Program-made: the position numbers and the translations under genes
Shown here: positions 3,516-36,232 of the stretch, piece after piece
Numbering within the stretch: the stretch's first letter is position 1
How the letters are laid out: each line of letters starts with the position of its first letter
Notes under the pieces: generated by a model
Database searches by the model: none
What the model was told of the DNA's origin: nothing
What the model saw: the letters and a program-made list of their open reading frames with translations, nothing else
DNA from: a candidate division KSB1 bacterium
GTDB taxonomy: Bacteria; Zhuqueibacterota; Zhuqueibacteria; JANLFK01; Oleimicrobiaceae
NCBI GenBank assembly: GCA_024655945.1
Contig: JANLFK010000003.1
Coordinates: 124,001-188,000, forward strand
DNA: 64,000 bases
Direction of reading: 5' to 3'

Positions 3516-3517
3516 GC

Positions 3518-3546
3518 TTGACAGTCGCCTTGCAGGTGCGTATATT
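3518..3546 (+). promoter_or_regulatory. Near-consensus sigma70 promoter for the OLD-like ATPase
   Basis: TTGACA (3518-3523), exactly 17 bases, then TATATT (3541-3546). It sits directly behind a strong terminator and about 57 bases before the ATG at 3603, so the ATPase gene is an independent unit. Confidence 0.8.
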
Positions 3547-3602
3547 GTAGCAGAAGCGGCTTCCGGACGTCGTTCGCAATCCCATGCACGGGGTGCAACA
3601 TC

Positions 3603-5736: not shown

Positions 5737-5745
5737 GAACGGCAG

Positions 5746-5780
5746 AGGGCCCCACCGTGTGCCCATGGCAGTGGGGCCCT
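5746..5780. terminator. Hairpin between convergent genes
   Basis: A perfect 10-bp inverted repeat, AGGGCCCCAC (5746-5755) with GTGGGGCCCT (5771-5780), and a 15-base loop, lies exactly between the convergent stops at 5736 and 5790. No T-tract follows on either strand, so it is at best a weak bidirectional terminator or an RNA 3'-end stabiliser. Confidence 0.5.
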
Positions 5781-5789
5781 GACGTCTTG

Positions 5790-6665: not shown

Positions 6666-6705
6666 CTTCTGTTGCCTCCCTCGGTCATTGTGTGCAGCTC
6701 AGTCC

Positions 6706-7596: not shown

Positions 7597-7627
7597 AGCC
7601 TCCCTTCTCTCCTCTTCTCGCCAGCAG

Positions 7628-8692: not shown

Positions 8693-8719
8693 TACAGCCT
8701 CATCTGTGGTGAAGTGCGG

Positions 8720-10489: not shown

Positions 10490-10522
10490 CGTTCCTTCCT
10501 CGCAGCAAGATGAGCGGGTTTT

Positions 10523-12502
10523 TCACTTCGGCGTAGTGCTGAACAAGAGTTCGCCTTCAGGATCTGGGATGCGCAGGTAGAAACCCCAGAAACCGAGCAC
10601 GTCCACCACTTTCACCAGCAGTTTGTTCCACCCGGCCTGGAGTTGCACCGCCACCTGATCCTGGTCAGGTGATGGGGGGCGCAGCGCTGGATTATGAACC
10701 ACCAGCACATCGTTCACCCAGAGGCGCACACCGTCGTCACTGCCGATCAACACGGGGACAGTCCGCGGCTTAGGGGAGTAGACGTAAGTCAAGGCGTAAG
10801 CAGCGGTGTAGTCGTTGGGCGTCAGCAGCGCGTCCATGTTCACAAAGCCGGTGGAGTCGGCCCGTACGTTCTGCCAGGAGATGGGCTTGCCGCCCTTGCC
10901 GGTGTAGGTTGCGGAGAGGTCGATCTCCCGCTCTGGCGGCCAAGCGGTGAGCAGGCCATAGGCCCCATCCTCCTCTGCGCCGGCGTCGAAGGGCCCGATG
11001 AGCAGCCACTCCTCCACGAACTGCCTGCGTGGCCGCAGCAGGATGCAATCCAAGCCGATGTCCTGGCCGCTCGCCGTAGTCGCCCGCCCCACGCTGGCCA
11101 GCACAAGAAAGTGCTCGCCCTGGGGCAGCTTCACGTCCCGGAGTTCCACCGCACCGGCGTGCGTCGTTTCGGGGGCGTACCCGTCAAACACAACCTCCTG
11201 AGGGTGCCCGGCCAGGGCTATGCGCACCTGGCCGTACGCCGGGCCCTTGGTCATGAAGCAGCAGACGTCATAGCGGTCCGACATGGCAACCGGAAAAGTC
11301 ACTGCGACCTGGTCACCAGTCGCCAGGCCCGTGCATGCCAGCTGTTTGCCGTTGCTCCACTCGGCGCCGTGGGTGGTCATCTCCTCTGCGCGGAGCACAA
11401 CCTTTTCCCGATCACCAACCAGGACCTGCGCTGCCAGATCCTCTGCCTCGACGACCCCCGGCGGCACAATCACCCTAAGAGGGATGCGCGCCTTGGGCGG
11501 CGGCAGCGGCGTTAAGGGCTTATGCGGTTCCCTCTGATACCAGAAGGCGACGCTACTGTAGTCGCTGGGCACCTCATTGCCGTGACCGTGTTCAATGGTC
11601 GCCAGGAGGCTACGGCGAAACGGGATGGCATCGCCAACATGAAAGCGATATGCCACCACCTTGGCCTGCTCCTCATCTTTGATGATACAGCCATGCAGCG
11701 CGCCAGGGTACGTACCGCGATTGAAATACCAGCCACTGGTAAAATAGTCCTCTGTGCCGGTGCCATAGATCGAAGGCGTGGTTTCTCCGTCTACGTAGAT
11801 CATTTCGTCCCCCTCAAGGAACGTGATGTCCCCGCTGCGCCCTTGCATGTTGAGGATGCACCCCACAAAGTGGCCGTACCCCTCTGCGTCGAGGATGGTG
11901 TAGTTCTTGCCAGCTGCTGTTTGCGCCTCGCGCCGCCAGTAGGCGTGGAACCGGCCGACGTTCTTCTCCAGCTTGTCCACCTCCTGGTAGTCGATGTGAT
12001 AGTAGAAGGAATCAATGTCATAGTCCGTCTCATTTGTTACCTCGATGCGCGCCCGGCGGGCAAAGGGCATGGGAAAGTAGCAGTAGTAGCCGCCACTGGA
12101 CATGCCCAGCAAGAGCGAGGTGTAGTGGGTGTAGGCGAAGCCTGTCCCGAAAAAATCGCCGACAGGGCAGAGCACGCTGGGGGAGCTTTCGTCGTCCCAG
12201 TACATGCGCAGCACGATGCGCCGCAGGAAGTATGGGTCGCGCGAAGCGATGGTCAGCCAAATGCGCGTGATTACGCCGGCGCCCTTGATATCCGCCAGCA
12301 CGGCGGTCTGCCCGCGGGGGATGACCAGGCGATCGGCATTGCCACCGGTGGTGTCGAAACTGGAGATTTGCCGCAGCCGGCTCTGCTTGAAGTAGGGGAG
12401 CCTTCCCAGCGAAAAGTCCTCCACCCGTGCCTGGGCCAGCACCCAGTGCGGAAGAACCACCAGCGCGAGAAGGCCTGTCGCCCACAACAGATGCTTTTTC
12501 AT
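10523..12502 (-). CDS. Secreted DUF2961/GH172-like glycoside hydrolase
   Basis: A 659-residue exported protein (signal peptide 'LLWATGLLALVVLPHWVLAQA'). Residues about 25-340 form the DUF2961 (GH172-like) domain, with a 'SSFDTTGGNADRL' start and the acidic 'YGTGTEDYFTSGWYF' motif. That Glu aligns with the catalytic acid reported for GH172 enzymes acting on fructofuranose or arabinofuranose linkages. The C-terminal 300 residues are beta-rich, with a carbohydrate-binding-like segment and a PA14-like 'IGSDDGVRLWVND' motif. I chose the ATG at 12500-12502: AAGGAGG precedes it and the signal peptide begins there. The exact sugar cannot be read from sequence. Confidence 0.8.
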   Translation of the reverse strand: MKKHLLWATGLLALVVLPHWVLAQARVEDFSLGRLPYFKQSRLRQISSFDTTGGNADRLVIPRGQTAVLADIKGAGVITRIWLTIASRDPYFLRRIVLRMYWDDESSPSVLCPVGDFFGTGFAYTHYTSLLLGMSSGGYYCYFPMPFARRARIEVTNETDYDIDSFYYHIDYQEVDKLEKNVGRFHAYWRREAQTAAGKNYTILDAEGYGHFVGCILNMQGRSGDITFLEGDEMIYVDGETTPSIYGTGTEDYFTSGWYFNRGTYPGALHGCIIKDEEQAKVVAYRFHVGDAIPFRRSLLATIEHGHGNEVPSDYSSVAFWYQREPHKPLTPLPPPKARIPLRVIVPPGVVEAEDLAAQVLVGDREKVVLRAEEMTTHGAEWSNGKQLACTGLATGDQVAVTFPVAMSDRYDVCCFMTKGPAYGQVRIALAGHPQEVVFDGYAPETTHAGAVELRDVKLPQGEHFLVLASVGRATTASGQDIGLDCILLRPRRQFVEEWLLIGPFDAGAEEDGAYGLLTAWPPEREIDLSATYTGKGGKPISWQNVRADSTGFVNMDALLTPNDYTAAYALTYVYSPKPRTVPVLIGSDDGVRLWVNDVLVVHNPALRPPSPDQDQVAVQLQAGWNKLLVKVVDVLGFWGFYLRIPDPEGELLFSTTPK

Positions 12503-22167: not shown

Positions 22168-23019
22168 CTACTTGCGGATCACCAGCACCGTGTGCGGGTA
22201 GATCAGGTTCGGGTCATTCCCGATGACCGACTTGTTGGCCTCGTAGATCTTGGTCCACGCTGCCGGGTCGTTGAGCACACTGGGGTCTTTGGCAATCTTC
22301 TGCAAAAAGTCGCCCTTGACCACGATGTACTGGTCAGGTCCGCAGCCGCGCAGGATCTTCAACACCCAATCCGGATAAATCAAGTCTGGATCCTTGATCA
22401 GGTCGCGGTTGACCGAGTAAATCTTCATCCACTGGTAGGGGTCGCCGTAGATCTCCTTCTTGCCCGAGATCTTCCAGAGGTAGTCGCCCTTGACCACCAC
22501 ATAGCTGTCGTAGACCGCCTTGGGCATGCGCGCCTCAACATCGGCGATCTTGGCCTCGGTGCCAGCAACCAGCTCGCGCATCTCAGACAAGGCGTAGATA
22601 GGGCTCTTCTTCTTGTCGGCCAGCTGCGCCTTCAGGGCCGCAAGTTCTTCCTTCTTCTCGAACAGCTCCTCCGGACTCAGGGCCGCCAGGCCATCCACCT
22701 GTTTCGCAATGGCCTGCAACGAGGCGCGGTAGGCGTCGACTGCTGCCTTGTCGACTCCCAAAAGGGCGTAGACCTCGTCCCAACAAGAAGCCAGGTCGGC
22801 GTCAGCCTTGGCGATCTGCTCCTTGAGCGTCTGGATCTCCTTGTCGCGTGCCGCGATTGCAGCCTTTGCGTCGGCCTCGCGCTTCTGCCACTTGGCCAGC
22901 TCGGCGCGGTATTCGTCCATGCTCATCTTCTCCGCACAGAGGGCGACCGTGGCGTCGACGAGCAAGAACAAGCCGAGCACAACCGCGAGGCTGAGCAACC
23001 ATTTAGCCGAAATCCTCAT
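22168..23019 (-). CDS. Periplasmic protein with coiled coil and two LysM-like domains
   Basis: 283 residues. Signal peptide (about 1-30, '...LLVDATVALCAEK'), then a charged helical or coiled-coil region (about 30-175), then two tandem repeats: 'YVVVKGDYLWKISGKKEIYG...LIYPDWVLKI' and 'YIVVKGDFLQKIAKDPSVLN...LIYPHTVLVI'. Each is an extended LysM unit of about 50 residues. LysM binds peptidoglycan, so the protein probably bridges envelope layers. ATG at 23019 is preceded by GGAGGAAA. It follows the small lipoprotein gene by 48 bases and shares its promoter. Confidence 0.85.
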   Translation of the reverse strand: MRISAKWLLSLAVVLGLFLLVDATVALCAEKMSMDEYRAELAKWQKREADAKAAIAARDKEIQTLKEQIAKADADLASCWDEVYALLGVDKAAVDAYRASLQAIAKQVDGLAALSPEELFEKKEELAALKAQLADKKKSPIYALSEMRELVAGTEAKIADVEARMPKAVYDSYVVVKGDYLWKISGKKEIYGDPYQWMKIYSVNRDLIKDPDLIYPDWVLKILRGCGPDQYIVVKGDFLQKIAKDPSVLNDPAAWTKIYEANKSVIGNDPNLIYPHTVLVIRK

Positions 23020-23067
23020 CGCGATTTCCTCCTTCGCTTCCGCTTGGCAATGGTTTTCCAATTGCGC

Positions 23068-23334
23068 CTACTTGCCCAACCGCTCCGCCACAGCCTTCTT
23101 CTCCTGCTGGCACTTGGCCAGTTCTTGCTGCTTGGCCGCCAACTGCTCGTCGAGGGACGCCTTCTCTGCGTCCTTGGCCTTGAGCTGGTCTTCAGCGGCC
23201 AGCGCTGCCTGCTTGGTCTCTTCCAGCTTGTTCAGCTGCTCCTGGCTCGGGTGCTTTGCGCACCCCACCGCAAAACTCACCAAGAGCAGCATAGCCAGTC
23301 CGAGGACCCACCCTGTCTTGAGCGTCTTGCGCAT
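23068..23334 (-). CDS. Small coiled-coil lipoprotein (Lpp/OprI-like in design)
   Basis: 88 residues: lipoprotein signal ending in 'SFAVGC', then a nearly continuous Lys/Glu/Gln/Ala heptad-type helix ('LEETKQAALAAEDQLKAKDA', 'LAAKQQELAKCQQEKKAVAE'). By design it resembles Braun-type outer-membrane lipoproteins, although sequence similarity is not claimed. ATG at 23334 with AAAGGAGG upstream. First gene of the pair with the LysM protein and close to a strong promoter, suggesting abundant expression. Confidence 0.75.
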   Translation of the reverse strand: MRKTLKTGWVLGLAMLLLVSFAVGCAKHPSQEQLNKLEETKQAALAAEDQLKAKDAEKASLDEQLAAKQQELAKCQQEKKAVAERLGK

Positions 23335-23401
23335 CGGGCCACACCTCCTTTCTTGGGACCAATGAACTATTTTCGCCGACCCACCACCACTCTGCTGCCG
23401 T

Positions 23402-23430
23402 ATAATACGAAAAAAAGCAATAATTGTCAA
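23402..23430 (-). promoter_or_regulatory. Near-consensus sigma70 promoter for the lipoprotein-LysM pair
   Basis: Minus strand TTGACA (23425-23430), a 17-base AT-rich spacer, then TATTAT (23402-23407). Transcription would start about 60 bases before the lipoprotein ATG. Confidence 0.8.
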
Positions 23431-23478: not shown

Positions 23479-25242
23479 CTACTTGGCCAGACGCAACCCC
23501 AATTCTCGCAGCTGCTCAGGCGAGATCTCAGTGGGAGCCCCGTCCATAAGGGAAAGCGCGCTGGTGGTCTTGGGGAAGGCGATTACGTCCCTGATGGTCT
23601 CCTTGCCCGCCAGCAGCATTACCAATCGGTCGAACCCAAAGGCGATGCCACCATGTGGTGGCGCCCCGTACTGCAGGGCCTCCAGCAGAAAGCCGAATTT
23701 CCGTTCTGCTTCTTCTGGCGAAATGCCCAGCACGCGAAACACCTCCCGCTGTAGTTCTGCGTCGTGGATGCGGATGCTGCCGCCGGCGACCTCGGTGCCG
23801 TTGAAGACCAGGTCATAGGCCTGCGCCCGCACCCGCTCCGGGGCCGTTTGCAGAAGGGCAATGTCCTCGCGGCGCGGCGAGGTGAAAGGGTGGTGCATGG
23901 CTACAAAGCGCCCCTCCTCCTGGCTGTACTCCAGCAGCGGGAAATCGGTCACCCACAGCAAGCTGATCTTGCCCTCGTCGATCAACCGGAGCTCCCTGCC
24001 CAGCCGCAGGCGCAGGGCCCCCAACACCGGCAGACACACCTCGCGGCGATCCGCCACCAGGAAGAGCATGTGGCCGGCAGCCGCATGCATGGCAGCGTTG
24101 ACGGCAGCAATCTCCTCTGCGGAGAAGAACTTCGCCGCGCCTCCCTCCCAACCGTCAGGCGTCACCTTCAAGGCCACCAGCCCCTTGGCCCCCAGCTCCT
24201 TGGCTGCCGCGGTCAGGTCATCGACCCGTTTCCTGGTGAAGGCCTCTGCTTGCGGGACGCACAGGCCGGCTACCATGCCGCCGCTGTTGACCGTCTCGGC
24301 AAAGACGCGGAACTGGCTGGCGGCCACCAAGGAACTGATGTCGGTGATGGGCAGCGCAAAGCGTAGATCGGGCTTGTCGGTGCCGTACTTCGCCATGGCC
24401 TCAGCGTAGGGCAATGCGGGCAGGGGCGTAGCCAGGTGATAGCCGAGCACCTGCTCCAGCACCTCCGCCATCAGCCCTTCACACACGGCGCGCACGTCAT
24501 CAGCGTCGACGAAGGACAGCTCCATGTCGATCTGGGTGAACTCTGGCTGGCGGTCGGCGCGCAGGTCCTCGTCGCGGAAACAGCGGACAATCTGGAAATA
24601 GCGGTCGAACCCCGCCACCATGAGGAGCTGCTTATAAGTCTGCGGCGACTGGGGCAGGGCGTAGAACCTCCCCTTGTGGATCCTGCTCGGCACCAGATAG
24701 TCGCGTGCGCCCTCCGGTGTGCTCTTGATAAGGCAGGGTGTCTCGATTTCCACAAAGCCATGCGCATCCAAGTAGCGGCGCACCACCTGGTAGACGCGGT
24801 GCCGGAGCAAGAGGTTCCGCTGTAGTTCCGGCCGCCGCAGGTCGAGGTAGCGGTAGGTAAGGCGCAGCTCCTCGGAGGCGTCAACTGGGTCTTTGATTTC
24901 GAATGGCGGGGTCTTGGCTTTGTTCAGGACTTCCAGCTCCGTGGCCACCACCTCAATGTCGCCGGTTGCCAGGTTTGGGTTGCGCATCCCCTCGGGTCGC
25001 ATGCGCACCGTGCCGGTGACGGCCACCACCGATTCCGCCTTCAGCTCCCGCGCCTGCTCACAGAGTTCCGGACGCGCCCAAGCATCAAAGTTGATCTGCA
25101 CAAGGCCGTAACGGTCCACCAGGTCCACGAAGTAGATGCCGCCATGGTCCCGGCGATGGCGCACCCAGCCCATCACCGTCACCTCCTGCCCCTGGTGACT
25201 GGCGCGCAATTCTCCACAGGGATGCGTTCGTTTCCTTTTCAT
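23479..25242 (-). CDS. aspS: Aspartate-tRNA ligase, probably non-discriminating
   Basis: 587 residues, full bacterial-type class II enzyme: OB-fold anticodon-binding domain (1-110), catalytic core with motif 2 'FRDEDLRADRQPEFTQIDME', the bacterial GAD insertion (about 290-410) and motif 3 'GIAFGFDRLVMLLAGKETIRD'. Position His33 (in 'RRDHGG') and Gly85 (in 'RPEGM') match the His/Gly pair of non-discriminating AspRS, as in Pseudomonas aeruginosa, rather than the Leu/Lys of E. coli. Such enzymes also load Asp on tRNA-Asn for amidation by GatCAB. ATG at 25242 preferred; GTG at 25245 possible. Confidence 0.96.
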   Translation of the reverse strand: MKRKRTHPCGELRASHQGQEVTVMGWVRHRRDHGGIYFVDLVDRYGLVQINFDAWARPELCEQARELKAESVVAVTGTVRMRPEGMRNPNLATGDIEVVATELEVLNKAKTPPFEIKDPVDASEELRLTYRYLDLRRPELQRNLLLRHRVYQVVRRYLDAHGFVEIETPCLIKSTPEGARDYLVPSRIHKGRFYALPQSPQTYKQLLMVAGFDRYFQIVRCFRDEDLRADRQPEFTQIDMELSFVDADDVRAVCEGLMAEVLEQVLGYHLATPLPALPYAEAMAKYGTDKPDLRFALPITDISSLVAASQFRVFAETVNSGGMVAGLCVPQAEAFTRKRVDDLTAAAKELGAKGLVALKVTPDGWEGGAAKFFSAEEIAAVNAAMHAAAGHMLFLVADRREVCLPVLGALRLRLGRELRLIDEGKISLLWVTDFPLLEYSQEEGRFVAMHHPFTSPRREDIALLQTAPERVRAQAYDLVFNGTEVAGGSIRIHDAELQREVFRVLGISPEEAERKFGFLLEALQYGAPPHGGIAFGFDRLVMLLAGKETIRDVIAFPKTTSALSLMDGAPTEISPEQLRELGLRLAK

Positions 25243-25372
25243 CACTCCTCAATATGTGTGCCACAAGCAAGCGCTGACCGGTCACAAAAAAGACCGTGAG
25301 CACTGCGCTACGGTCCATGGTCTCCCGCAGAGAATACCTCGGCGCCCGCCAAGCCTCGCCAAGCAAGGACGG

Positions 25373-26404
25373 TCAGAAACCGAAGGTGTAGACCTGGCGA
25401 AAGGTGGCATCCCCCAGAGATGCATCCACCGTGCCGAAATCGTCCCAGCGTTGAATACGGCGCAGGATGCACGCCTCAAGCTCTGGGCTGTTTAGGGTGG
25501 ACGAGACGATGGTAGCGCTGCTCACCTTTCCCTGCGGGTTGATGGTGAAGCGGACCACCAGTTTTCCCTTTAACGTCGGGTTGCGCTTGAGCTCCTTCTG
25601 ATAGCAGTATTCGATGGCGTCGTTGTGGCCGTTCACTACCTTGGAGACCTGGTCTGGGTCTCGCCCGGCAAGGCTCGTTACCTCGCCCTCACGATCTATG
25701 GGCGTGACCGGTCCCACCACCAGATTGCCGACCCTGACGACCGTCGAAGAGGTCGCTGTGCCGAGCTCACCGAGCAGGGTATCGATGGTGCCGGTTTCGG
25801 TGGTGCGGGCGCCACGCACCTCTCGCTCCCGGGTGGGCGCCCCCGTGCTCTTCAGTCCCCCAACGCTTCCGAGCACCGTGCCTATGTCGGCGCTCGGCTC
25901 CTCGCCGCCGAGGAGTTGGCGTGCCTGCTCTCCTGCTCCGCCGCTTCCTGCAGTGAGAACTCGCAGCACGCCGGTGGAACGCGCCTCTGCAGCCAGGCGT
26001 TCGCGTGTCGCCGCATGGGCAGGCGAAAGCGGTGCCTCGGCTGCGGTGCCGGCTGCCCCGCTCACAGGCGAGCTGGAAGCAGCACCTTTGCCCGGTGTGC
26101 GCGCGGCCACTTCGGCCCCACCTGGCGTTACTTCTTTGGCCCCTCGGGTGGCCGGCACGGGTAGACCTTCCCGCAGCGGCATCTCCTTTGGCGGCTGGGC
26201 ATGACGCACAATGAGGGTGGCAAGACGTGCCTGCGTGGCGGCCGGTACCTCCTCCTTCTCCTGCGTGGGCCGCGAAAGAAGCAGAACCATCAGCCCAAAA
26301 TGGACCACCACGGAAGCGCCCAGGATGAGCACAAAGGTACGGCTCACCTCCGCGAACCAGCCCTTCCGGTACTCTTTGGGCAGCACCATCTCAGTTGCAA
26401 CCAC
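25373..26404 (-). CDS. AgmX/PglI-type TonB-like energy transducer
   Basis: 343 residues. One N-terminal transmembrane helix ('FVLILGASVVVHFGLMVLLLS'), a long low-complexity Ala/Gly/Pro-rich periplasmic linker, and a C-terminal globular domain (about 240-343): 'NDAIEYCYQKELKRNPTLKG' followed by 'KLVVRFTINPQGKVSSATIV'. This is the AgmX/PglI C-terminal pattern, a TonB-like domain known from Myxococcus gliding genes. It would transmit energy from the ExbB/ExbD channel to an outer partner. A GTG start at 26404 is preferred because GGAGG lies 6 bases upstream; the ATG at 26389 lacks a ribosome-binding site at a good distance. Last gene of the 36129-25373 operon. Confidence 0.85.
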   Translation of the reverse strand: MVATEMVLPKEYRKGWFAEVSRTFVLILGASVVVHFGLMVLLLSRPTQEKEEVPAATQARLATLIVRHAQPPKEMPLREGLPVPATRGAKEVTPGGAEVAARTPGKGAASSSPVSGAAGTAAEAPLSPAHAATRERLAAEARSTGVLRVLTAGSGGAGEQARQLLGGEEPSADIGTVLGSVGGLKSTGAPTREREVRGARTTETGTIDTLLGELGTATSSTVVRVGNLVVGPVTPIDREGEVTSLAGRDPDQVSKVVNGHNDAIEYCYQKELKRNPTLKGKLVVRFTINPQGKVSSATIVSSTLNSPELEACILRRIQRWDDFGTVDASLGDATFRQVYTFGF

Positions 26405-26438
26405 AGCACTCCTCCGCTGGCGTGGCAGCGCCACCTTG

Positions 26439-26969
26439 CTACAGAGTGGAGGCCGTCTCCGCCGAGCGCCCGGTCGGACGTTCCAGCTGGTAGACGGCCA
26501 GACGCAGGTTCGTGTACTCACACATCCCGCAGGTAGCGAGAACCTTCACCAGGATGCCATACTCGAGGTCTTTGTCTGCCTGGACATTCACCCTGCCCGA
26601 GAACTTGATGCCGTACTTCTGCTCGGCCTCTTTGGCGCGGTCGGCGTATACCTTGAGCCTGTCCCGCAGTCTGGGTACGATCAACCCCTCCTGCCCCGCC
26701 ACGTTTACCACGGTCTCCACGACCTCATCGTTCACCATGACCGTCTCCTTGGAGACGATCACGTCCAGCGCCGTCTCGGGAATCGTCTCCACGGTGGACT
26801 TGGGCAGGGTCAAGTTCTCCGAGGGGTGAATCAATCCCCCCTCGGTCGAGTAACTCTTCAGCAAGAACACCAGGATGATGGTGAACATGTCCATCAAGGA
26901 GGTCAGGTTGAGGAACCCCTTGCCTGGGTTGGTATCATGCTTCTTGATGCGCGAGGGAATATAGGCCAT
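26439..26969 (-). CDS. ExbD/TolR-family channel subunit (canonical)
   Basis: 176 residues. A short cytoplasmic lead, one transmembrane helix with the conserved ion-translocating Asp ('LNLTSLMDMFTIILVFLL', Asp27), then a periplasmic domain. ExbD subunits sit inside the ExbB pentamer and couple proton flow to periplasmic motion. The start has CCGGAG upstream. It is 28 bases downstream of the second ExbD-like gene in an ExbB-ExbD-ExbD-TonB arrangement. Confidence 0.9.
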   Translation of the reverse strand: MAYIPSRIKKHDTNPGKGFLNLTSLMDMFTIILVFLLKSYSTEGGLIHPSENLTLPKSTVETIPETALDVIVSKETVMVNDEVVETVVNVAGQEGLIVPRLRDRLKVYADRAKEAEQKYGIKFSGRVNVQADKDLEYGILVKVLATCGMCEYTNLRLAVYQLERPTGRSAETASTL

Positions 26970-26997
26970 TGCTTACTCCGGGACGAAGCTCTTGCCG

Positions 26998-27549
26998 TCA
27001 CTGGATGCCGGCAGCGAGTGCCACCTGTGGGAAAAGGTTCACCGTGCGGCCCTCCACCTGGCATGACCGCGCGGCGTCCATGGTCGAAACCACTACCTGG
27101 TAACGAACCCCTGGGTCCGCATTGATGATGATACGCTCGTCATCGGCGAATGTCCCCTGAGCCCGACTCTTGATCTCAAGGAGCACGCTGGACAAGCGTT
27201 CATAGTCGTACACTGGCGAGCCGTCTTCGCCAAGCTTCTTGGGGATGGAGGGACCACCTCCCTCACCCCTCAGCACACCGAGCACGCTGGAGATGTAGAA
27301 GCCCTGGTCGGTGATGCTTACTGCCAAATCGAGGGTGCGCGCCGTCTCGGTGGGCATGCCACTGGCCCCCGTTCCCTGCACCAGTGGGGCCGGCGGCAGG
27401 TCAAGCTGGATGACCCCGATGCGCACAAACGTCACCGTCGACAGCAGCAAGGGGATCAGGACCACCATCAGGTTCATCACCGGAAAGAGGTTGATCTCCA
27501 CCTGCTCGGCAAAGGTACGGCTGCTTCTGAGTGAAGGTCGAAACGCCAT
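26998..27549 (-). CDS. ExbD/TolR-like subunit lacking the membrane aspartate
   Basis: 183 residues with the ExbD layout: short cytoplasmic lead, one transmembrane helix, periplasmic domain with 'IIINADPGVRYQVVVSTMDAA', the usual ExbD strand-helix. In the membrane helix ('EINLFPVMNLMVVLIPLLL') the position of the obligatory Asp is Asn26. The protein therefore probably cannot carry protons itself and may serve as a structural second subunit of a heterodimeric ExbD pair. It begins one base after the ExbB stop. Confidence 0.85.
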   Translation of the reverse strand: MAFRPSLRSSRTFAEQVEINLFPVMNLMVVLIPLLLSTVTFVRIGVIQLDLPPAPLVQGTGASGMPTETARTLDLAVSITDQGFYISSVLGVLRGEGGGPSIPKKLGEDGSPVYDYERLSSVLLEIKSRAQGTFADDERIIINADPGVRYQVVVSTMDAARSCQVEGRTVNLFPQVALAAGIQ

Positions 27550-27550
27550 G

Positions 27551-28201
27551 CTATTGATTCCCTGTGATCAGGTTAATCAACTTGACCATGTGCTCATCGA
27601 TCTCGTCGATGATCTTAGTGGTCTTGTTGTGCAGCCAGGTGTAGGCGACGATGGTCGGCACTGCAATGATCAAGCCGAAGAGGGTTGTGTTCATCGCCAC
27701 GGCGATGCCCGCAGCCAGAAGGCGTGCCTTCTCCGCCGGGTCGATGCCAGGACCCGACACGCTGCGAAAGGCAATGATCAGCCCGTACACCGTGCCCATC
27801 AAGCCGATGAGCGTGGCCACGTTGGCGATCATGGCCAAGTACCCGGTGCGGTTCTGCAGTTTGGGGATGACCTCCAGCGTGCCCTCGTCGACGGCGTTCT
27901 GGATCGAGCGAAAGTCGACCGTCTCGCTCTCGCTCACCTTGCGCAGACCGGCGGAAACGACCCGCGCCAAGGCGCGATCGTTGGCAGCCTCGCACAGTGC
28001 CAAGGCCTCGCGGTACTCCCCGGCCTTGATATGCTTTCGAATTTGTGCCATGAACATCGCGGCATTGATGTCGCTCTTCAGTTTGATGTAGATGAAGCGC
28101 TCGATGAAGATGGCCACCGCCATAGCGGCAATGAACAGCAGTGTCCACATGAACACCCATCCCGCGCTGCTGGGACTGAAACCGCTGATCAATTCAGACA
28201 T
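27551..28201 (-). CDS. ExbB/TolQ/MotA-family proton channel
   Basis: 216 residues. Three transmembrane segments (about 15-35, 120-145, 165-190) and the family core 'LQNRTGYLAMIANVATLIGLMGTVYGLIIAF', followed by 'LAAGIAVAMNTTLFGLIIAVP'. In relatives this protein forms the pentameric ring around ExbD. ATG at 28199-28201 has GGAGGTG upstream. A 92-base gap separates it from the small secreted protein gene. Confidence 0.92.
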   Translation of the reverse strand: MSELISGFSPSSAGWVFMWTLLFIAAMAVAIFIERFIYIKLKSDINAAMFMAQIRKHIKAGEYREALALCEAANDRALARVVSAGLRKVSESETVDFRSIQNAVDEGTLEVIPKLQNRTGYLAMIANVATLIGLMGTVYGLIIAFRSVSGPGIDPAEKARLLAAGIAVAMNTTLFGLIIAVPTIVAYTWLHNKTTKIIDEIDEHMVKLINLITGNQ

Positions 28202-28248
28202 GCAACACCTCCACGCATAGGGGTTTTTTGCTCTCCTCTGCGAAGGCA

Positions 28249-28267
28249 CCGTGGCTCACCGCCACGG
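28249..28267 (-). other. Intercistronic hairpin without T-tract
   Basis: Seven-base perfect stem ccgtggc/gccacgg with a 5-base loop, in the gap upstream of the exbB-like gene. No T-run follows on the minus strand. It might protect or process the mRNA between the TPR and channel halves of the operon. Confidence 0.35.
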
Positions 28268-28293
28268 GCAACATCCTGGAGCGAGCAGCCATG

Positions 28294-28632
28294 CTACTTC
28301 TTCTGACGAGCAATGAGCTTCTGCAGACGCTTGATTTTCTTGGCCGACTCCAGTTCCTCCTGGAACCCGGTCAACCCGCTCGGGACTTCTCGCAACTCGC
28401 GCTCGAAGCTCCTCTCCACGAAAAGCGGCGTCTTGAACTCCGGCTTGACGCGCTTAGGGAGTATGGCCACGCTGGGCTTTTCCACGACCGTCACGATGAG
28501 GATGGGCGGCAGAATTTCTTCCTCCACTTGCTGAGTAGCCGCAGGCCTCGTGCTTTCCTGAGCAGCAAGCGGACCTACCTGCAGCAGCAAGGCCACCCAC
28601 ACAAGAGCCACCAGAGAAAACAGAACTCGCAT
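28294..28632 (-). CDS. Small exported protein of the TPR/ExbBD operon
   Basis: 112 residues. Clear signal peptide (1-25, '...LLQVGPLAAQES'), then a short proline-containing region ('EEEILPPILIVTVVEKPS') and a basic helical C-terminus ('ESAKKIKRLQKLIARQKK'). I do not recognise the family. Its position between the giant TPR gene (13 bases upstream) and exbB suggests a periplasmic accessory of the machine. Confidence 0.75.
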   Translation of the reverse strand: MRVLFSLVALVWVALLLQVGPLAAQESTRPAATQQVEEEILPPILIVTVVEKPSVAILPKRVKPEFKTPLFVERSFERELREVPSGLTGFQEELESAKKIKRLQKLIARQKK

Positions 28633-28645
28633 GTGCAACCTCAGC

Positions 28646-31600
28646 TTAAGGGATCTGCTCTCGCTTTTGGATAAGCAACTCCTTCTCCTTCTCGTCCAGC
28701 ACGAGCGGGGCAAGGCGCTGCCGCTCTTCCTTCCAGCCGGGAATGGTACGCCAAGTCAGCAGCAGGTGCAGCCCATCGATTTCGCCGTCCACATCTTTGG
28801 CCTCGACGGCCACCACGTTTTCTCCCTCATGGAGAAGGTCAGTCACTTCGTGCACGTAGACACCCAGAGGCTTCTCTGGCGGCTGCACGACCTGGGTGAC
28901 AAAGTGGCCGTTGACGAACAGGTTGTAGGAGCCATCTGCTGCCAGGAGCACCTGACCGCCTACCGGCAAGCCCACCACGCTAAAGGTGCGGCGCAGGTAG
29001 ACCAAGGGCCCACGGCGCTGCTCAACCTGGGGCACAAGGCCTTGGGCGAGGGAGTCGAAGCGCACGCTCACCGTCTCCGGCTGCACACACCACAGGTACA
29101 GGCCTGGCGGCCGCTTGGGGCCTTGAACATTCGCCACCACCGTGGGCACTGCCCAGCTCTTATCGTCAAAATCTAATGTCGGCCAACCCTTGGTGTACTG
29201 CCACGCCGCCCGCCAGTTGAGATCCGTGGCCAGCGTGTCCGCCACTGCGCGAAGGCCGAGCCGGGGTGCATAAGTATCGGGGTCGAAACGGGCCAGGTGC
29301 AACACCAGGTTCTTGGCCCAGACATTGTCGATGCCCAACGAATCGCACGCCGCAACACCCGTGCGCAGGATCTGCTGCAGCCCCTCGTGGGCGGCAAAGT
29401 AGTTGTCCTCGAAAGTGAGGATGGCGTCTCTGAACACCGGCTCTTGCTGCTCGCGATAGCGACCGACAAACGCCTGCCCGCGCTGTTTGGTCATGCCACA
29501 AATGCTATCCAGTCTCTCGACGTAGTGGAAGAGGCCCTGTGTCAGCTTTTGCTCAGTGATGGCCACACCTTGGCCATCGAGGCCATGCTTGCGCGCGCGC
29601 TTCAGGGTTTCCTGGTAGCCCTCGCTAAAGTTGACTGCAAATGCTGCGCCAAATTCCAGCAAGTTGGCCATCTGGTCTGCCAGCTCCACCAGGTCCTCGC
29701 CGGCCTGAGTCACGCGAGCACCTGTTTCCACCAGAGCAAGATACTGGGCTTCCCTGTTCCGGTAATCCTCAAGCACCTCAGCCGCCAAGGAGGCAAAGAG
29801 GTCTGGCAGCATGTTAGAGACCTCAATGGCGCTGCTCTTGGCGAGGGCCACTAGCTGGTTTTGCACGCCAAGCTGTTCCGCCGCCTCGGCGCTCTCCGCG
29901 TAGGCGGCAGCCGCGGCGTCAAGAAGCGGTTTTACGGCAACGAGCAAGAGCTGCCGACGGTACTCCACGGAAGTGAGCAGGTCCAGGCCAGATGGCAGCG
30001 GCACGGCAAGCAGGCGCTCAGCCGAGAGTCTCTTCAGCTCGCCAATGGTGTAAAGATTTTCACAGACTTTTTCCTTGCACCGCCCGATCCAGCGGTTTGC
30101 CACCCGAAGCACGCTATCGCTTGCGGCCACCTGCACGGAATCCGCGCCTGGCGGCACAGGGAGCTGGCGCCGGTAATCCTCAGCCAGCCGCGTCAACACG
30201 CCAATCGAATTGCGGTACGAATCGGTGGCCCGGCGGTAGAGCTGAGCGGCCACCTCGGCTGCCTCATTGCGCGCCACCGCTTCCTCGGCGGGGTCCATGC
30301 GTGGTATTTCCTGCCGCCCGTAGCTGCGCGCGAACTCTTCATAGCACGTGCCCACGCGGTAGGTGGCTTCGTAGAGCCGGACCGTGCCCATACCGGCCAC
30401 GCGCGTGTAGTCCTTCACCAACTGCAGGAGCAAATCCCGCTTCTCCTGCAGCGCGTGCTGCAGCTGGCTCTTCGGCAGCCGGAGCTCGATGGCGACAAAG
30501 CGAGCATACTGAAGTTCACTGAGCGCAAAGAGAGCCTCGGCGGCATAGAAATCGTTGCCTGGCAGCCCCTTGCTCTTGAGCTCCTCGTGGCTACTCACCG
30601 CCTTGTGGTACTCGCCGGCTGCACGCTCCTTGTCGCCAGTCTCGGCAAAATATTCGCCGCGCCGGTAGTAGCTCTCCACGACGCGGGGCGATGCAGGGTA
30701 TTTGGTGACAAACTCGCCATACGCCGCGCTTGCGTTCTGCCAATCCTTCAGCTTCAGGTAGTAGCCGGCGATGTCGTAGGCGAGGTCTTCAGCTTCGCGG
30801 GTTTCCGGGTAGCGAGCAAGGAACTGGCGATTCACCCGGATGGCCTGTTCCCACTCCTCAGCGGCTGCGTGGCAAATGCTGGCATTGTACAGCGCGTCCT
30901 TCGCCTTGCCCGGGTCGACGTGCAGCTCGGCAAGCCGCGCGTAGGTCAACGCCGCGTTGTGGAAATCATCCACTTCCCGGTAGTCGAAAGCCAAGTTGTT
31001 GAGCGCGTCCAGGCGATAGACAGAAGCGGGCCAGCCGGCCAACAGCCGGAGGTACGTTTCGATGGCGCGATTGAACTCCTTGGCCTTATCGAACTCCAAC
31101 GCCGCATTGAACAACGCCAGGTCGCCAAACTCGACATCCGGAACCTCTGCCACCACGCGATCAAATTCTTCCCCTGCCTTGTAGTGCTCTTCGGACTCGG
31201 CAAGCAGCTCGGCAGCCAAGAAGATGGATTCGGCCAGCCGGCGGCGTGCCTTGGAGACCAGCTCCGGCGAGGGGTTGTCTTCTATGATCCTCTTTGCCAC
31301 CGCCTCGGCGCTGGTAAAATCCATCTTGCCGAAGTAGCTCTCCATGATGATGTAGCGCGCATTGGCCAGCTCTTCGCTGTCGGGAAAGTGCTTGACGAGC
31401 GTCTTGAAGTACTTGAGCGCCTCTTTGAACTGATTGTGGTTGTAGTACAGCGCGCCGGCATTGACCAACATGCGCGCGGTCTGCGGCTCGTGGGGGAAGA
31501 GCATGATGTAGTTGTCGTATGCCTCGGCAAGGCGCTGTTCCGCCGGATGCAGCGGGGTCGGCGGATGGACCAGACGCGCATGGATGGTTGCCGCGCTCTC

Positions 31601-33223
31601 CTTGGTCACAGCTCCCGGCTGCTGCTCGCGGGCCACAGCTGCCTGGGCGGCAGCAGCCGCTACCTCTTCCCGCGCCCCCTCCCGCGCTAAGGCCACGGCA
31701 TTCTCGGCCGCCTGCCTTTGATAGCGCGAATCCCAATACTTCTGACTGATCGCCACGTACTCCGTGTAGGCAGCCGCATAATCGTCCAGATGGGTATCTA
31801 GCGTCAAGGCCATGTTCCAGTGAATGCGCGGCGCACTGGAGTCGGCAGGGAACCTTTCCAGGTACTTCCGGCTGTCGCTCACCGCCTGCTCGTAAAAGTC
31901 CCGATCGCCCGTGGCTTCGCCCTTCTGGTACAGGAAGGTAATGTTGTCGCGCAGGGCCTCTTCGGCCAGGCGCTGCGCCTCTGCGCGTACGTTCGCATCG
32001 GTGTTCCTTGCCCACCAACTGGACCCTTCGCCGTACAGACTCACCAGTTGGTTGCGGCTCTGGTAGGCCTTGAGCTCATCCTTGAGCAAACGGTAGGCTT
32101 CGACAATGCGGCTTTGCACCACGGGCGCCAGGGGGCTCTCTGGGTAAAGGGCCAAGAGCAGCTCGTAGGCATAGATGGCATTGCGGAACTCTTCCTTCTC
32201 CTTCAGGTACCCGTCGCCCATGCGCTTGAGAATCTGCGCGCCGTACGGTCGACCGCCGATCTTGTTCAGGTAAGCCGCGGCACGCGCAGGTCCGCCGTAA
32301 TCAAGGAAGCTTATGGCGATGTACTCGACCGATTCGTCACGCAGGGCCGGGTTGGTATAGGCGCCACGCGCATCCAGGGGCGAGTACCGGTCGATGTCGT
32401 CAGCCAGCAGCGTGAAGTAGGACACAGCCTCCGGGAATTGGCTGAGCCGATAGTAACTCCATCCCAAGCGGTACAGCGCCTCGTCGTAGCGGGGGCTGTC
32501 CGGGAACTTCAAGACTTGCTGGTAGAACTCGATGGCCTTGGGCAAGTCGTTCCGCGGCGGGCTGAAGTAGTACTCCCCGATGCGCATCAGCGCGTTAGGC
32601 AGATAGCGGCTTTGCGGGAACTCCTCCACCACGCGCTGATACAGAGCCACCGCGGCCGTATCCTGCCCCAATGCCTCGAAAATGAAAGCCTGGTTGTAGA
32701 GCGCGTCGTCCATGTACTGGCTGTGGGGAAACCTCTCCCTCACCGCCTGCAGCAGAGCCAATGCCTTGCTGAAGTCCTTGCGCGGCTCCACTGGGGGGGA
32801 GTTCCTCTCGCCGTGCTCGTAGGCAGCAAGCTCTTCCTCGTACTGGCGCATGGCCGCCAAGTAGTCGTCTTCTGCCTGTTCATAGTAGAGCTCGGCAAGT
32901 CGCATCATCACTTCGTCGAGGATGCGACTCTGGGGGTTTTGAGCAATGAAGAGCTCGGCGTCGCGCATGCCGCGCTGGCGGAGGGCCACCCGTTCCTTTT
33001 CGCGTGCTGCCAAGCGGTTGGCGTACAGCTGGCGATAGGCCTGCAATTCCTCCAATGAGTAGCTGGCCATCACGCTATCGCCGAACAGCGACCTGAGCAC
33101 CATGGCCAGCGAATCGGCAGAGGTCTGCGCCAAAGATGACCCGGCGACCACCAGGACAATCCCCGTTACCAGCAAGGCCCTTGCCAGCGGTGACCTTCTT
33201 CGCTGCATGCGCATAGGCTCCAT
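28646..33223 (-). CDS. Giant periplasmic TPR protein with a C-terminal beta-sandwich
   Basis: 1525 residues. Signal peptide (about 10-32, '...VAGSSLAQTSADS'), then many TPR-like helical repeats from about 60 to 950, with the typical Y/A/P pattern (for example 'ALYNQAFIFEALGQDTAAVA' and 'YYNHNQFKEALKYFKTLVKH'). A helical region follows, and from about 1340 a galactose-binding-like beta domain ('YLRRTFSVVGLPVGGQVLLA', 'YNLFVNGHFVTQ'). The repeats resemble BamD/YbgF-type TPRs that scaffold envelope complexes. It starts 5 bases after the stop of the other TPR gene. Which outer partner it serves is unknown. Confidence 0.85.
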   Translation of the reverse strand: MEPMRMQRRRSPLARALLVTGIVLVVAGSSLAQTSADSLAMVLRSLFGDSVMASYSLEELQAYRQLYANRLAAREKERVALRQRGMRDAELFIAQNPQSRILDEVMMRLAELYYEQAEDDYLAAMRQYEEELAAYEHGERNSPPVEPRKDFSKALALLQAVRERFPHSQYMDDALYNQAFIFEALGQDTAAVALYQRVVEEFPQSRYLPNALMRIGEYYFSPPRNDLPKAIEFYQQVLKFPDSPRYDEALYRLGWSYYRLSQFPEAVSYFTLLADDIDRYSPLDARGAYTNPALRDESVEYIAISFLDYGGPARAAAYLNKIGGRPYGAQILKRMGDGYLKEKEEFRNAIYAYELLLALYPESPLAPVVQSRIVEAYRLLKDELKAYQSRNQLVSLYGEGSSWWARNTDANVRAEAQRLAEEALRDNITFLYQKGEATGDRDFYEQAVSDSRKYLERFPADSSAPRIHWNMALTLDTHLDDYAAAYTEYVAISQKYWDSRYQRQAAENAVALAREGAREEVAAAAAQAAVAREQQPGAVTKESAATIHARLVHPPTPLHPAEQRLAEAYDNYIMLFPHEPQTARMLVNAGALYYNHNQFKEALKYFKTLVKHFPDSEELANARYIIMESYFGKMDFTSAEAVAKRIIEDNPSPELVSKARRRLAESIFLAAELLAESEEHYKAGEEFDRVVAEVPDVEFGDLALFNAALEFDKAKEFNRAIETYLRLLAGWPASVYRLDALNNLAFDYREVDDFHNAALTYARLAELHVDPGKAKDALYNASICHAAAEEWEQAIRVNRQFLARYPETREAEDLAYDIAGYYLKLKDWQNASAAYGEFVTKYPASPRVVESYYRRGEYFAETGDKERAAGEYHKAVSSHEELKSKGLPGNDFYAAEALFALSELQYARFVAIELRLPKSQLQHALQEKRDLLLQLVKDYTRVAGMGTVRLYEATYRVGTCYEEFARSYGRQEIPRMDPAEEAVARNEAAEVAAQLYRRATDSYRNSIGVLTRLAEDYRRQLPVPPGADSVQVAASDSVLRVANRWIGRCKEKVCENLYTIGELKRLSAERLLAVPLPSGLDLLTSVEYRRQLLLVAVKPLLDAAAAAYAESAEAAEQLGVQNQLVALAKSSAIEVSNMLPDLFASLAAEVLEDYRNREAQYLALVETGARVTQAGEDLVELADQMANLLEFGAAFAVNFSEGYQETLKRARKHGLDGQGVAITEQKLTQGLFHYVERLDSICGMTKQRGQAFVGRYREQQEPVFRDAILTFEDNYFAAHEGLQQILRTGVAACDSLGIDNVWAKNLVLHLARFDPDTYAPRLGLRAVADTLATDLNWRAAWQYTKGWPTLDFDDKSWAVPTVVANVQGPKRPPGLYLWCVQPETVSVRFDSLAQGLVPQVEQRRGPLVYLRRTFSVVGLPVGGQVLLAADGSYNLFVNGHFVTQVVQPPEKPLGVYVHEVTDLLHEGENVVAVEAKDVDGEIDGLHLLLTWRTIPGWKEERQRLAPLVLDEKEKELLIQKREQIP

Positions 33224-33228
33224 CTCAG

Positions 33229-36129
33229 TTAGTCCTGCTGCTGTGGTCGCATGGACTGGCGGGACGAGACCTGCTCGCTCTCGGTGGTGTCAAAGTAGGC
33301 GGTCTTGAAGTAGAGAGCCCGTTCTTCCCGCTCTTGGGCCACCCTCTTTGCTTCCAATTGTGCGCTCAGGCTGGCCAGCTGCAGGTCGAGCTGCTGCAGG
33401 TAGGCGTCCAGTGCCTGGCGGCGTTGGGTAATGAGGCCATCGATTGCCGCAAGCCGGCCGGCATACGTTTCGATGGCCACCTCGTGGTCTTGCAGCGAGC
33501 TGTAGCTGATGTCGCTCATCTCCAGGCCGGCGCGATCGGCCCACTCCTGGAGCTGAGACCCGATCTCCTGGATAGGTTGTGTGGCCACCCACATCCGGAA
33601 TCGGCTGAGGTTGTTCTGCAGCATGCGCAAGCGGCGCTCGATGAGCTCCAGCCCGAAGCGCGCACTGAACGGTACCTGCCCGCCATTGGTTTGCAGCTGG
33701 CGGATGTTCTCCAAATCGGCTGCCACGCGGTTTCGTTCGGCTTCAAGTTCTCGGACCGCGGTGGCAATGGACTGCGCCCGGTAGCGCATCTCCATTTCCT
33801 GGGCAACAGCCGGAAAGTCCACCAGATAGCTGGAGTTGAGGGAGGCCGGCCGATTCTGCAAGTCGATGAGAATCTCCAGCAGGCGAAAGCGCCGGCGATC
33901 CGCTTCGGTGGCCAGGTCCTCGCGCCCGGCAGCCTGGGCATCGGCAATCAGGACACCCAGCGCCTCGATCTGGTCCAAAAGGCCCTGCGCCTCTTCGCGC
34001 AAGTCTGCGATAACTCTCGTGCCAAGGTTGGAGCGGAAACGCACCGCCTCCAGCGATCTCTGGATGGCCTGCCGGAGGCGAACCACCTCGGGGTAGGTGA
34101 CCATGTCGCGCCGAGCCAACGCCTCCCGCTCCAAGCGATTGAGCGCCTGCACCTGCGCTAAGAGGCGCTGCAGCTCCGTGCGGTACAGCCCGGCGATGTC
34201 TACCACGCCCCGCGCGTCGACGACATAGCGGTGTCCAGCCAGCGCCTGGTCGCTCCTGCCCAGGATGCGACTGCAATGGGCGGCCAGTACGACGGCTTCG
34301 TAGGAATAGGACGATGTCGGAAACTCAGCCACCAGCCGCTGGCACGTGGTCAGAGCCAACTCGTAGTTGCCCTGCTTGAAAGCTGCCCAAGCTGCAGCGA
34401 TCACGCTCTTGTCGCGCTCCGCATAACCGGAGGAAACTCGGGCAAAATACTCCTCTGCCCGCCCGTACTCGCCCCGCTGGTAGGCGATGAGCCCCAGCCT
34501 GAGCAGCGCCGCATTGCGAATCTCCACGGCGCGCTGGTCAGTCCAGGGGAGAGTGGCACGGTCGGCCAACGCGGAAAAAATGGGTACCGCCCCGTTGTAG
34601 TTGTTCTGCGCTGCATAGATCACGCCGGTGAGAAAGCGCGCCTCCAGCCAATGAGGCGAGGAGGCGGGTATCTTGCCAAGCGTCTCCAAAGCCGCCTGCA
34701 GCCGCCCGTCCCGAAACAGAGACTCGCCGGCCAACATGTAGGCCCTGTGCAGCTCCTGGGGATGAGCTCTGTCCGCCGCGGCCGCCAGTTGCTCGAAATA
34801 GCGGTAGAAGTCGCTCTTCCAGCCGTACACGCCGCTTATCTGCATCAAGCGCAGCAGGGATTCGGTGTAGTACTCGGAGCCCGGCTGCTTCCCCCCAATC
34901 TCCTGGTAGCCGGTCAGCGCGGCCTCCAGAAAGCCCTGTGCCAACAAGCACTCGCTGCGGTAGAAGGTCACCGGGTCCAGCCCGCGGTAGTAGTCGCCAT
35001 AGTCATCGAGTACCGCGGCCAGTTGCAGCTCGGCCAGGACGTAGTCACCTTGCGCATAGTGAGCCAGGGCATCGGTCAGTTCGCGGGCCAGCATCCGGTC
35101 GCGCTGCGCATCGCTACCTTGGGCGATGAGCCGGCGCTTTGCTACCAGGTAAGGGGTAAAGCGCGCCTCAAGGTCGGCAGAACGCTCCTTCTCCCATTCG
35201 GCAAGAAACTCCGTCACGGTTGGCCCTGTCCCCGGAAGAGGCCCCTTGTAGCCAGCCAGGCGCACCATGCGTTGGTCGATCCGATCCACCAGTTCCCACT
35301 TTGTGCGCAGGACTGTCTCTCTGACCACCGCGGCGCTGTCACCAGGGGGAACAGGAAGAGTGTCCAGGGTCTGGAGCACGCGCACCAGGCTGTCCACCTC
35401 GGCCAGATAGGCGTCCAGCAGCCGCCGTTCCACCGCCGAGGGAGGCCGCACCTGGGTCAAAGCAGCGGCAATCTGCGCCTTTTGCCGGGCGATCTCCTCT
35501 TGGGCCTGGGAATTGGCCTGAGCAGCAGGCTGCCGGGCCAGCAGGTCAAGACGATCGTACACAGAGAGGAGGGAGTCCAGCTCGCCGGAGAACTCCTTGA
35601 TGAGCCCACCTAAGTCGGCAGGGGCATAGCCGACTTCCGCGTAGATCTTGCGGTCCTCGATGGCCGAAGCGATCTCATCACGAGTGCGGACCACCTCCTC
35701 CCACAGCTGCAGATTTTCAGCAGGGAGGGAGCTACTCAGCTTGGAGAGGTCATCGTAGATGGCCAACAGCTGCTCGATCTCTGCGGCATAGGCGGCTGCC
35801 AGCGAATCGCCAGAGCCATAGACCAGCGGGAAGACGAGCTCCTGGAGCGGCTGCCCTTCCTTGGCACGCGCCTGCCCTTCCTGAGAGACAAGCCTGATCA
35901 GCTGGACGAGCTGCTTTTCCTTGGCAACCAGCCAGGTGAGAAAGCCCTCAGTCTGCCAGGCGATGTACTCACGGAGGCGTTCCGCAAACAGGGGAGCAGT
36001 GTCCTGGTCCGCCCCGGACGGCAGGCCAGGGGAAGGAGGCGCCACCGACAGGCAGAGCATGCAGACCAGCAGGAGGAGCACCCCGTAGCCCCACCTCTTC
36101 CACCCTCTGTCTTCCCGTAACGCTCTCAT
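33229..36129 (-). CDS. Large periplasmic TPR and coiled-coil protein
   Basis: About 966 residues. A basic N-terminus and a hydrophobic signal or anchor ('YGVLLLLVCMLCLSVAPPS') are followed by helical coiled-coil stretches, TPR-like repeats in the middle (about 380-680, for example 'YQRGEYGRAEEYFARVSSGY') and a long coiled coil at the end ('LQQLDLQLASLSAQLEAKR'). It is the first gene after a consensus promoter. The start is uncertain: the frame is open to an ATG at 36195, but predicted transcription starts near 36197, so that ATG would be leaderless. I prefer 36129, where the signal sequence begins, although its ribosome-binding site is weak. Confidence 0.8.
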   Translation of the reverse strand: MRALREDRGWKRWGYGVLLLLVCMLCLSVAPPSPGLPSGADQDTAPLFAERLREYIAWQTEGFLTWLVAKEKQLVQLIRLVSQEGQARAKEGQPLQELVFPLVYGSGDSLAAAYAAEIEQLLAIYDDLSKLSSSLPAENLQLWEEVVRTRDEIASAIEDRKIYAEVGYAPADLGGLIKEFSGELDSLLSVYDRLDLLARQPAAQANSQAQEEIARQKAQIAAALTQVRPPSAVERRLLDAYLAEVDSLVRVLQTLDTLPVPPGDSAAVVRETVLRTKWELVDRIDQRMVRLAGYKGPLPGTGPTVTEFLAEWEKERSADLEARFTPYLVAKRRLIAQGSDAQRDRMLARELTDALAHYAQGDYVLAELQLAAVLDDYGDYYRGLDPVTFYRSECLLAQGFLEAALTGYQEIGGKQPGSEYYTESLLRLMQISGVYGWKSDFYRYFEQLAAAADRAHPQELHRAYMLAGESLFRDGRLQAALETLGKIPASSPHWLEARFLTGVIYAAQNNYNGAVPIFSALADRATLPWTDQRAVEIRNAALLRLGLIAYQRGEYGRAEEYFARVSSGYAERDKSVIAAAWAAFKQGNYELALTTCQRLVAEFPTSSYSYEAVVLAAHCSRILGRSDQALAGHRYVVDARGVVDIAGLYRTELQRLLAQVQALNRLEREALARRDMVTYPEVVRLRQAIQRSLEAVRFRSNLGTRVIADLREEAQGLLDQIEALGVLIADAQAAGREDLATEADRRRFRLLEILIDLQNRPASLNSSYLVDFPAVAQEMEMRYRAQSIATAVRELEAERNRVAADLENIRQLQTNGGQVPFSARFGLELIERRLRMLQNNLSRFRMWVATQPIQEIGSQLQEWADRAGLEMSDISYSSLQDHEVAIETYAGRLAAIDGLITQRRQALDAYLQQLDLQLASLSAQLEAKRVAQEREERALYFKTAYFDTTESEQVSSRQSMRPQQQD

Positions 36130-36203
36130 AATTCCGCTCGCGTAGACTGTCCCTCCGCCTCCGGCCCACATGCCCGCCGGCAGGTACAACGCCATTGCGC
36201 AGT

Positions 36204-36232
36204 ATTATACGAACATTTTCGCACTATGTCAA
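36204..36232 (-). promoter_or_regulatory. Perfect consensus sigma70 promoter of the TPR/ExbBD operon
   Basis: Minus strand TTGACA (36227-36232), exactly 17 bases, TATAAT (36204-36209). Both hexamers match consensus fully. It would drive the whole 36129-25373 unit. Confidence 0.85.

Follow-up and report, generated by a model that had tools for sequence, protein, structure and literature searches.

What might an ExbB/ExbD-type motor drive when the genes ahead of it encode two giant TPR proteins? The question is raised by seven genes in a 64,000-nucleotide stretch of DNA from a candidate division KSB1 bacterium (hereafter the window), in which a first-pass annotation had seen a dedicated, energised machine spanning the envelope. 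Phylum-wide collinearity, the motifs of the motor, the signal-peptide-like N-termini of the scaffold proteins and the AgmX-type transducer all argue for such a machine, but the combination of motor and TPR proteins is not new as a kind, the Glt/Agl core complex having already been described (PMC3169522).

Layout and conservation of the operon

The features discussed below are as follows, with the seven genes numbered G1 to G7.

36204..36232, minus strand: promoter, sigma-70 consensus TTGACA-17-TATAAT (12/12 consensus bases)
33229..36129, minus strand: G1, periplasmic helical/TPR protein, 966 aa (988 aa from 36195); TPR families
28646..33223, minus strand: G2, giant periplasmic TPR protein, 1525 aa; TPR_6 116.6 bits, collinear orthologues
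28742..29251, minus strand: C-terminal jelly-roll of G2, residues about 1325-1494; AlphaFold2 model, pLDDT 88
28294..28632, minus strand: G3, exported protein, 112 aa; alignment of orthologues
27551..28201, minus strand: G4, ExbB/TolQ/AglR-type proton-channel subunit, 216 aa; PF01618 89 bits
26998..27549, minus strand: G5, ExbD-1, with Asn at the proton-carrying Asp site; PF02472 47.6 bits
26439..26969, minus strand: G6, ExbD-2, with the proton-carrying Asp kept (LTSLMDMFTIILVFLLK); PF02472 49.2 bits
25373..26404, minus strand: G7, AgmX/PglI-TonB-type force transducer, 343 aa; NF033768 93.2 bits (cut-off 40)
23479-25245, minus strand: AspS, downstream neighbour
23068-23430, minus strand: lipoprotein-like coiled-coil protein, downstream neighbour
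22168-23061, minus strand: LysM protein, downstream neighbour

The layout proposed earlier, a perfect promoter ahead of seven same-strand genes with mostly small gaps, the largest of 92 bases, was borne out in both its parts. All seven open reading frames lie on the minus strand in the order G1-G2-G3-ExbB-ExbD-1-ExbD-2-AgmX-type, separated by 5, 13, 92, 1, 28 and 34 bases (with the start codons as chosen in the analysis), and the promoter is the single perfect TTGACA-(16-18)-TATAAT in the 64 kb window, with none found in 100 shuffles (0 expected). Its 29-base core is identical at 29/29 and 28/29 positions in two congeners in which the flanking intergenic DNA has diverged, and in seven further relatives the DNA upstream of G1 contains a candidate promoter that matches 10-11 of the 12 consensus bases. 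The spacer holds an operator-like inverted repeat, CGAAAATGTTCG, which is intact in one congener; in the other, one arm is broken by one base, and because of this difference we do not claim an operator role for it. The open reading frame of G1 opens at ATG 36195, with the -10 box ending 8 bases ahead; since this first ATG falls at the expected transcription start, the true start is probably ATG 36129, which gives a protein of 966 aa. No strong terminator was seen after G7, so the transcript may read on into aspS.

Wherever a contig was readable, the order of the seven genes was identical, in a total of 106 KSB1/Calditrichota loci with an ExbB of the window type (a count that includes repeats of one genome). 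The proposed co-occurrence of the TPR genes with exbB, exbD and agmX holds throughout KSB1, where no readable locus separates them. Most of 60 relatives have an orthologue of G2, and G7 was matched with at least 277 bits in 57 of the 82 genomes of the phylum that were searched, other classes included. A genome scan located the window type of ExbB also in Fibrobacterota, Raymondbacteria, Bacteroidetes MAGs and Latescibacterota and, more distantly, in Moraxellaceae. As a rule for the whole FCB group the linkage stands in part: TPR genes are kept upstream of the motor in Bacteroidetes, Latescibacterota and Calditrichota loci, but the closest motors in Fibrobacterota proper (L130, L142) have no adjacent TPR gene.

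The conserved block extends beyond G7: AspS comes next in most loci, and AspS, the lipoprotein-like protein and the LysM protein (LysM domain score of 37 bits) follow the seven genes in unchanged order in 39 loci, and PhoH is often next beyond the LysM protein in KSB1/Calditrichota loci. The lipoprotein-like coiled-coil and LysM proteins are possible envelope partners, and these neighbours may be functionally associated with the operon.

The motor, its unequal ExbD pair and the transducer

The annotation of an ExbB, two ExbD-like subunits and an AgmX-type protein was upheld by family models (89 bits for PF01618, 48 and 49 bits for PF02472, and 93 bits for NF033768 against its cut-off of 40). 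ExbB carries the family signature GIS-x-AMNTT in TM3. The 5:2 ion motors (ExbBD, TolQR, MotAB) have a pentameric wheel around a dimeric axle that carries the membrane Asp; in the window operon this Asp is present in ExbD-2, and ExbD-1 has Asn. The E. coli TolR sequence served as the anchor row of the alignment, and the register of this Asp/Asn position was checked independently against solved ExbD/TolR chains. ExbD-1 has Asn in every window-type row (21 KSB1, 1 Calditrichota, 2 Bacteroidetes) and likewise in the rows of the B type (the paralogous operon described below; 11 rows), of types F3 and F4, of Latescibacterota and of gammaproteobacteria. Two of the three F2 rows have Asn and the third Ser, and the F1 fusions, which align unevenly, show 2 Asn, 1 Gly and 2 gaps. 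ExbD-2, for its part, has Asp in 54 of the 54 systems compared. The Asn of ExbD-1 together with the Asp of ExbD-2 predicts an asymmetric axle, and the alignment extends this prediction to almost every sampled system of the two-ExbD/TPR family. A text search of the literature found no report of such an Asn/Asp pair; in the Myxococcus motor AglQ and AglS both carry Asp, and whether they form a heterodimer was left as an open question (PMC9389320).

In an ExbB tree of 58 rows, built without M. xanthus AglR/Q/S, all two-ExbD/TPR systems stand apart from TonB-type ExbB (100/99). Support of 99/95 unites the window type with types from Calditrichota, Bacteroidetes and Latescibacterota and with one type from Fibrobacterota; paralogue B, the other Fibrobacterota types and the gammaproteobacterial systems fall outside this clade. 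A different arrangement was observed in Fibrobacterota/Raymondbacteria motors (L130 9992-12597, L142 9992-12560, L131 9989-12580), in which a stand-alone ExbB is followed by a second ExbB fused to an ExbD of the ExbD-1 type (about 430 aa) and then by an Asp-type ExbD; these are possibly motors with two wheel proteins.

The transducer G7 consists of one TM helix with the motif S-x3-H, a low-complexity linker and a TonB-like C-terminal domain (tonB_Cterm, 31.7 bits; cut-off 27.1). S-x3-H is the motif of the motor-docking helices of TonB and TolA; in G7 it is retained in much of the class, other polar residues taking its place in other classes. GltG is the best full-protein model for G7, at 77 bits, but its cut-off is 650, and Pfam and NCBIfam searches found no FHA domain. 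The genome of the window also holds unlinked AgmX-type paralogues of G7 (L061 9457-10602, plus strand; L062 about 9400-9711, minus strand), with no ExbB or ExbD nearby. Among the 32 genomes that carry an L061-type paralogue, 31 also possess the window-type operon, which is itself present in 62 of 79 classifiable genomes (Fisher p = 0.0007, kinship ignored). Akin to AglRQS, which is shared by GltG and NfsG in Myxococcus (PMC3858216), one motor may serve both the G7 of the operon and its unlinked paralogue.

The TPR proteins and the jelly-roll of G2

The predicted structure of G1 is all helices (pLDDT 77), and the protein scores 38 bits with the GltC model, far below the cut-off of 450. The N-terminus of G2 is signal-peptide-like (...SSLAQ), as are, read by eye, the starts of the G1 and G2 orthologues, and a G2 profile matches a gammaproteobacterial TPR protein of 993 aa with 205 bits. 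A model of the final 531 residues of G2, built with 22 orthologues, shows a helical bundle followed by a jelly-roll (fragment residues 331-500); with a mean pLDDT of 88, it confirms the beta-sandwich that had been read from the sequence at the end of the 1525-aa protein. The jelly-roll aligns to the N-terminal sugar-binding domains of GH2 glycosidases over 137 residues (VIA-align Z 14.5, rmsd 4.1); Foldseek E-values are modest, and Pfam reports Glyco_hydro_2_N in 6 and Bac_rhamnosid_N in 4 of 22 G2 orthologues, with weak E-values. Almost every window-type G2 protein has the domain, as does one type from Fibrobacterota, but the TPR proteins of the B-type, F2 and gammaproteobacterial systems lack it. 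The likeness of the modelled fold to the GH2 domains suggests that the jelly-roll may bind sugar.

Between G2 and ExbB lies the small protein G3, which has a signal-peptide-like start and the motif I-x-V-V-E-K-P-x-V-x-I-L-P-K-R ... R-S-F-x-x-E-L. Weak profile cross-matches (25-31 bits) connect it to the paralogous operon's small gene, and it sits where non-myxobacterial Glt/Agl core complexes have an extra gene, to which it may correspond.

Relation to known machines and rival readings

The Glt/Agl core complex consists of TPR proteins, ExbB, two ExbD and GltG, and was adapted in Myxococcus to gliding and to spore-coat transport (Luciano et al. 2011, PMC3169522). The window operon resembles it in that a single cluster holds TPR proteins, ExbB, two ExbD and a transducer of the AgmX/TonB type, and differs from it in having two giant TPR proteins where the core has three (GltC, GltD, GltE), in the jelly-roll that ends G2, in a transducer without FHA and in a separate ExbB clade. 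NCBIfam models and gene layout provide the link to Agl/Glt, and the proteins of the operon are far from reaching the NCBIfam equivalog cut-offs for GltG and GltC. The operon stands on a supported branch of its own, marked by TPR proteins of greater length, the jelly-roll and the lack of FHA in its transducer; it is a distinct FCB variant of the Glt/Agl core-complex kind and falls short of membership under the published cut-offs.

This layout has a second version in the same genome. About 50 kb beyond the window, a paralogous operon (L031, G000:C3:236000-250000, 3062-12053, minus strand) has the order 605 aa - 389 aa - TPR 464 - TPR 1000 - 124 aa - ExbB - ExbD - ExbD - 489 aa. Like the window operon it runs from two TPR genes and a small protein through ExbB, ExbD-Asn and ExbD-Asp to an AgmX-type transducer, but its TPR proteins are smaller (464 and 1000 aa) and lack the jelly-roll, an additional barrel-like gene lies upstream, and the N-terminus of its transducer (AgmX/PglI domain, 93.4 bits) is FHA-like by eye, with no Pfam match to FHA. 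Identity to the window operon is 28% for G2 and 38% for ExbB, and eleven KSB1 copies of the L031-type operon form one clade in the ExbB tree. L031 is the more canonical, Glt/Agl-core-like copy, close to the published layout (PMC3169522). Its two upstream genes encode an MG2-type protein (605 aa) and the barrel-like protein (389 aa), for which family searches gave nothing informative. Beside it (L031 217-2889, minus strand) an M6-type protease-like protein matches a T9SS-type model for a C-terminal sorting domain (30 bits, cut-off 23), a hint that KSB1 may have type IX-like secretion. Farther afield, operons of PVC bacteria (PMC12204202) likewise combine a TPR gene, one TolQ-like, two unlike TolR-like genes and one transducer; in these TPR-TolQ-TolR-TolR-vWA operons the transducer is a vWA protein, that of the window operon being of the AgmX/TonB type.

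The anatomy of the proteins gives good support to a mechanism of motor plus scaffold, and we consider it fairly probable that the seven genes specify a proton-driven machine of the Glt/Agl-core kind, which would span the envelope and act through its AgmX-type arm on a periplasmic TPR-glycan scaffold. In such a machine, five ExbB would encircle an ExbD-1/ExbD-2 heterodimer, and proton flow via the single Asp site would turn or ratchet this axle; the transducer would ride on ExbB, its tip passing through the wall and acting cyclically on the TPR scaffold, which in turn would hold a periplasmic glycan or an outer-membrane assembly. By analogy with the Myxococcus Agl-Glt/Nfs system, which moves polymers on the cell surface (PMC3858216), the machine would most likely use its energy to handle a polymer associated with the surface or the wall, or else a surface complex. 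The window operon contains no outer-membrane partner gene, and the earlier remark that it lacks an outer-membrane receptor is correct for all the genes read.

The rival that survives best, which we nevertheless regard as unlikely, is a Tol-Pal-like tether, in which the motor and CpoB/YbgF-like TPR proteins would pull the two membranes and the wall towards one another, for instance when the cell divides. The likeness is real in several parts: TolQ is the best ExbB equivalog model for G4 (69 bits), the motor as a whole is TolQ/TolR-like, the repeats of G2 score 146 bits with a YbgF/CpoB-type model, and G7 ends in a TonB/TolA-type domain. The neighbours (bactofilin, M23 peptidase, ParB, the lipoprotein-like protein and LysM) would also suit a tether, and the genus of the window has no TolB or Pal over cut-off. 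Yet neither gene occurs in the operon or among its conserved neighbours, and two dissimilar ExbD, one of them without the Asp, are as foreign to Tol as are the giant scaffold and the AgmX-type transducer. Away from the operon, 7 of 20 genomes have TolB/Pal genes that score over cut-off, and five relatives (G007, G009, G011, G012 and G016) hold a canonical TolB-Pal pair together with the window-type operon, a coexistence that weakens the idea of the operon as a replacement for Tol-Pal.

A true gliding engine like Agl-Glt of Myxococcus would account for the core parts that the two have in common, but the core complex is also present in non-gliding bacteria and is insufficient for motility (Luciano et al., PMC3169522), the group A genes gltA, B, F, H, I, J and K were not seen beside the operon, and flagellar genes are present in the same genome (L032), which makes this reading quite improbable.

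The third rival derives from Fibrobacter succinogenes S85, in which the genes FSU_2396-2403 show the order TPR-TPR-[unlisted]-ExbB-ExbD-ExbD-TonB, as in the window operon, and differ from it in an OmpA gene upstream and in the F2-type TPR proteins without jelly-roll; their placement in the F2 branch, which is not that of the window operon, follows layout and size. The ExbB, ExbD, TonB and TPR proteins of this locus were raised on cellulose (PMC6851124), several were detected on cellulose only (PMC4619616), and the TPR protein FSU_2397 and the OmpA protein FSU_2396 were reported to belong to one complex that also includes cellulases and a fibro-slime protein (work of Arntzen et al., cited in PMC6851124 and PMC4619616). 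The authors read the motor as one for TonB-dependent import of cellodextrin (PMC6851124). That the window operon is such a TonB-type energiser of outer-membrane import, as its ExbB/ExbD/TonB-like parts might suggest, is the least probable of the three readings, since in the lineages read the operon showed no gene resembling a TonB-dependent receptor, the same genome has another, TonB-type system (L033 4083-10726, minus strand: TPR of 1011 aa, TonB-dependent receptor-like, ExbB, ExbD and TonB), the window ExbB clade stands apart from the TonB-type ExbB of that genome (100/99), and the giant TPR genes are collinear with the motor in all readable KSB1 loci. Both Tol-Pal and TonB-dependent uptake fit worse than a motor acting on a TPR-glycan scaffold.

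More tentatively, and with rather more doubt than belief, we extend the scaffold-bound motor to a general proposal: all two-ExbD/TPR machines might depend on an axle that is always a heterodimer and has just one proton site, in a motor of 5:1:1 rather than symmetric 5:2 stoichiometry. The FCB branch might have coupled this motor to a giant TPR scaffold that grips sugar and, in many of its genomes, to two transducers, as an envelope machine distinct from Tol, Ton and type IX secretion.

Taken together, our results extend the family of the gliding-motor core to a phylum-wide FCB operon, of which we found no description in the literature, and show that a single genome holds two paralogous versions of this core. 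With the Asn/Asp pair, the question of an AglQ/S-type heterodimer (PMC9389320) becomes directly testable in natural motors, and the modelled jelly-roll offers a concrete lead towards what may be a glycan cargo. The Fibrobacter cognate, which has appeared in cellulose proteomics but was read there as nutrient import, provides a cultivated test system.
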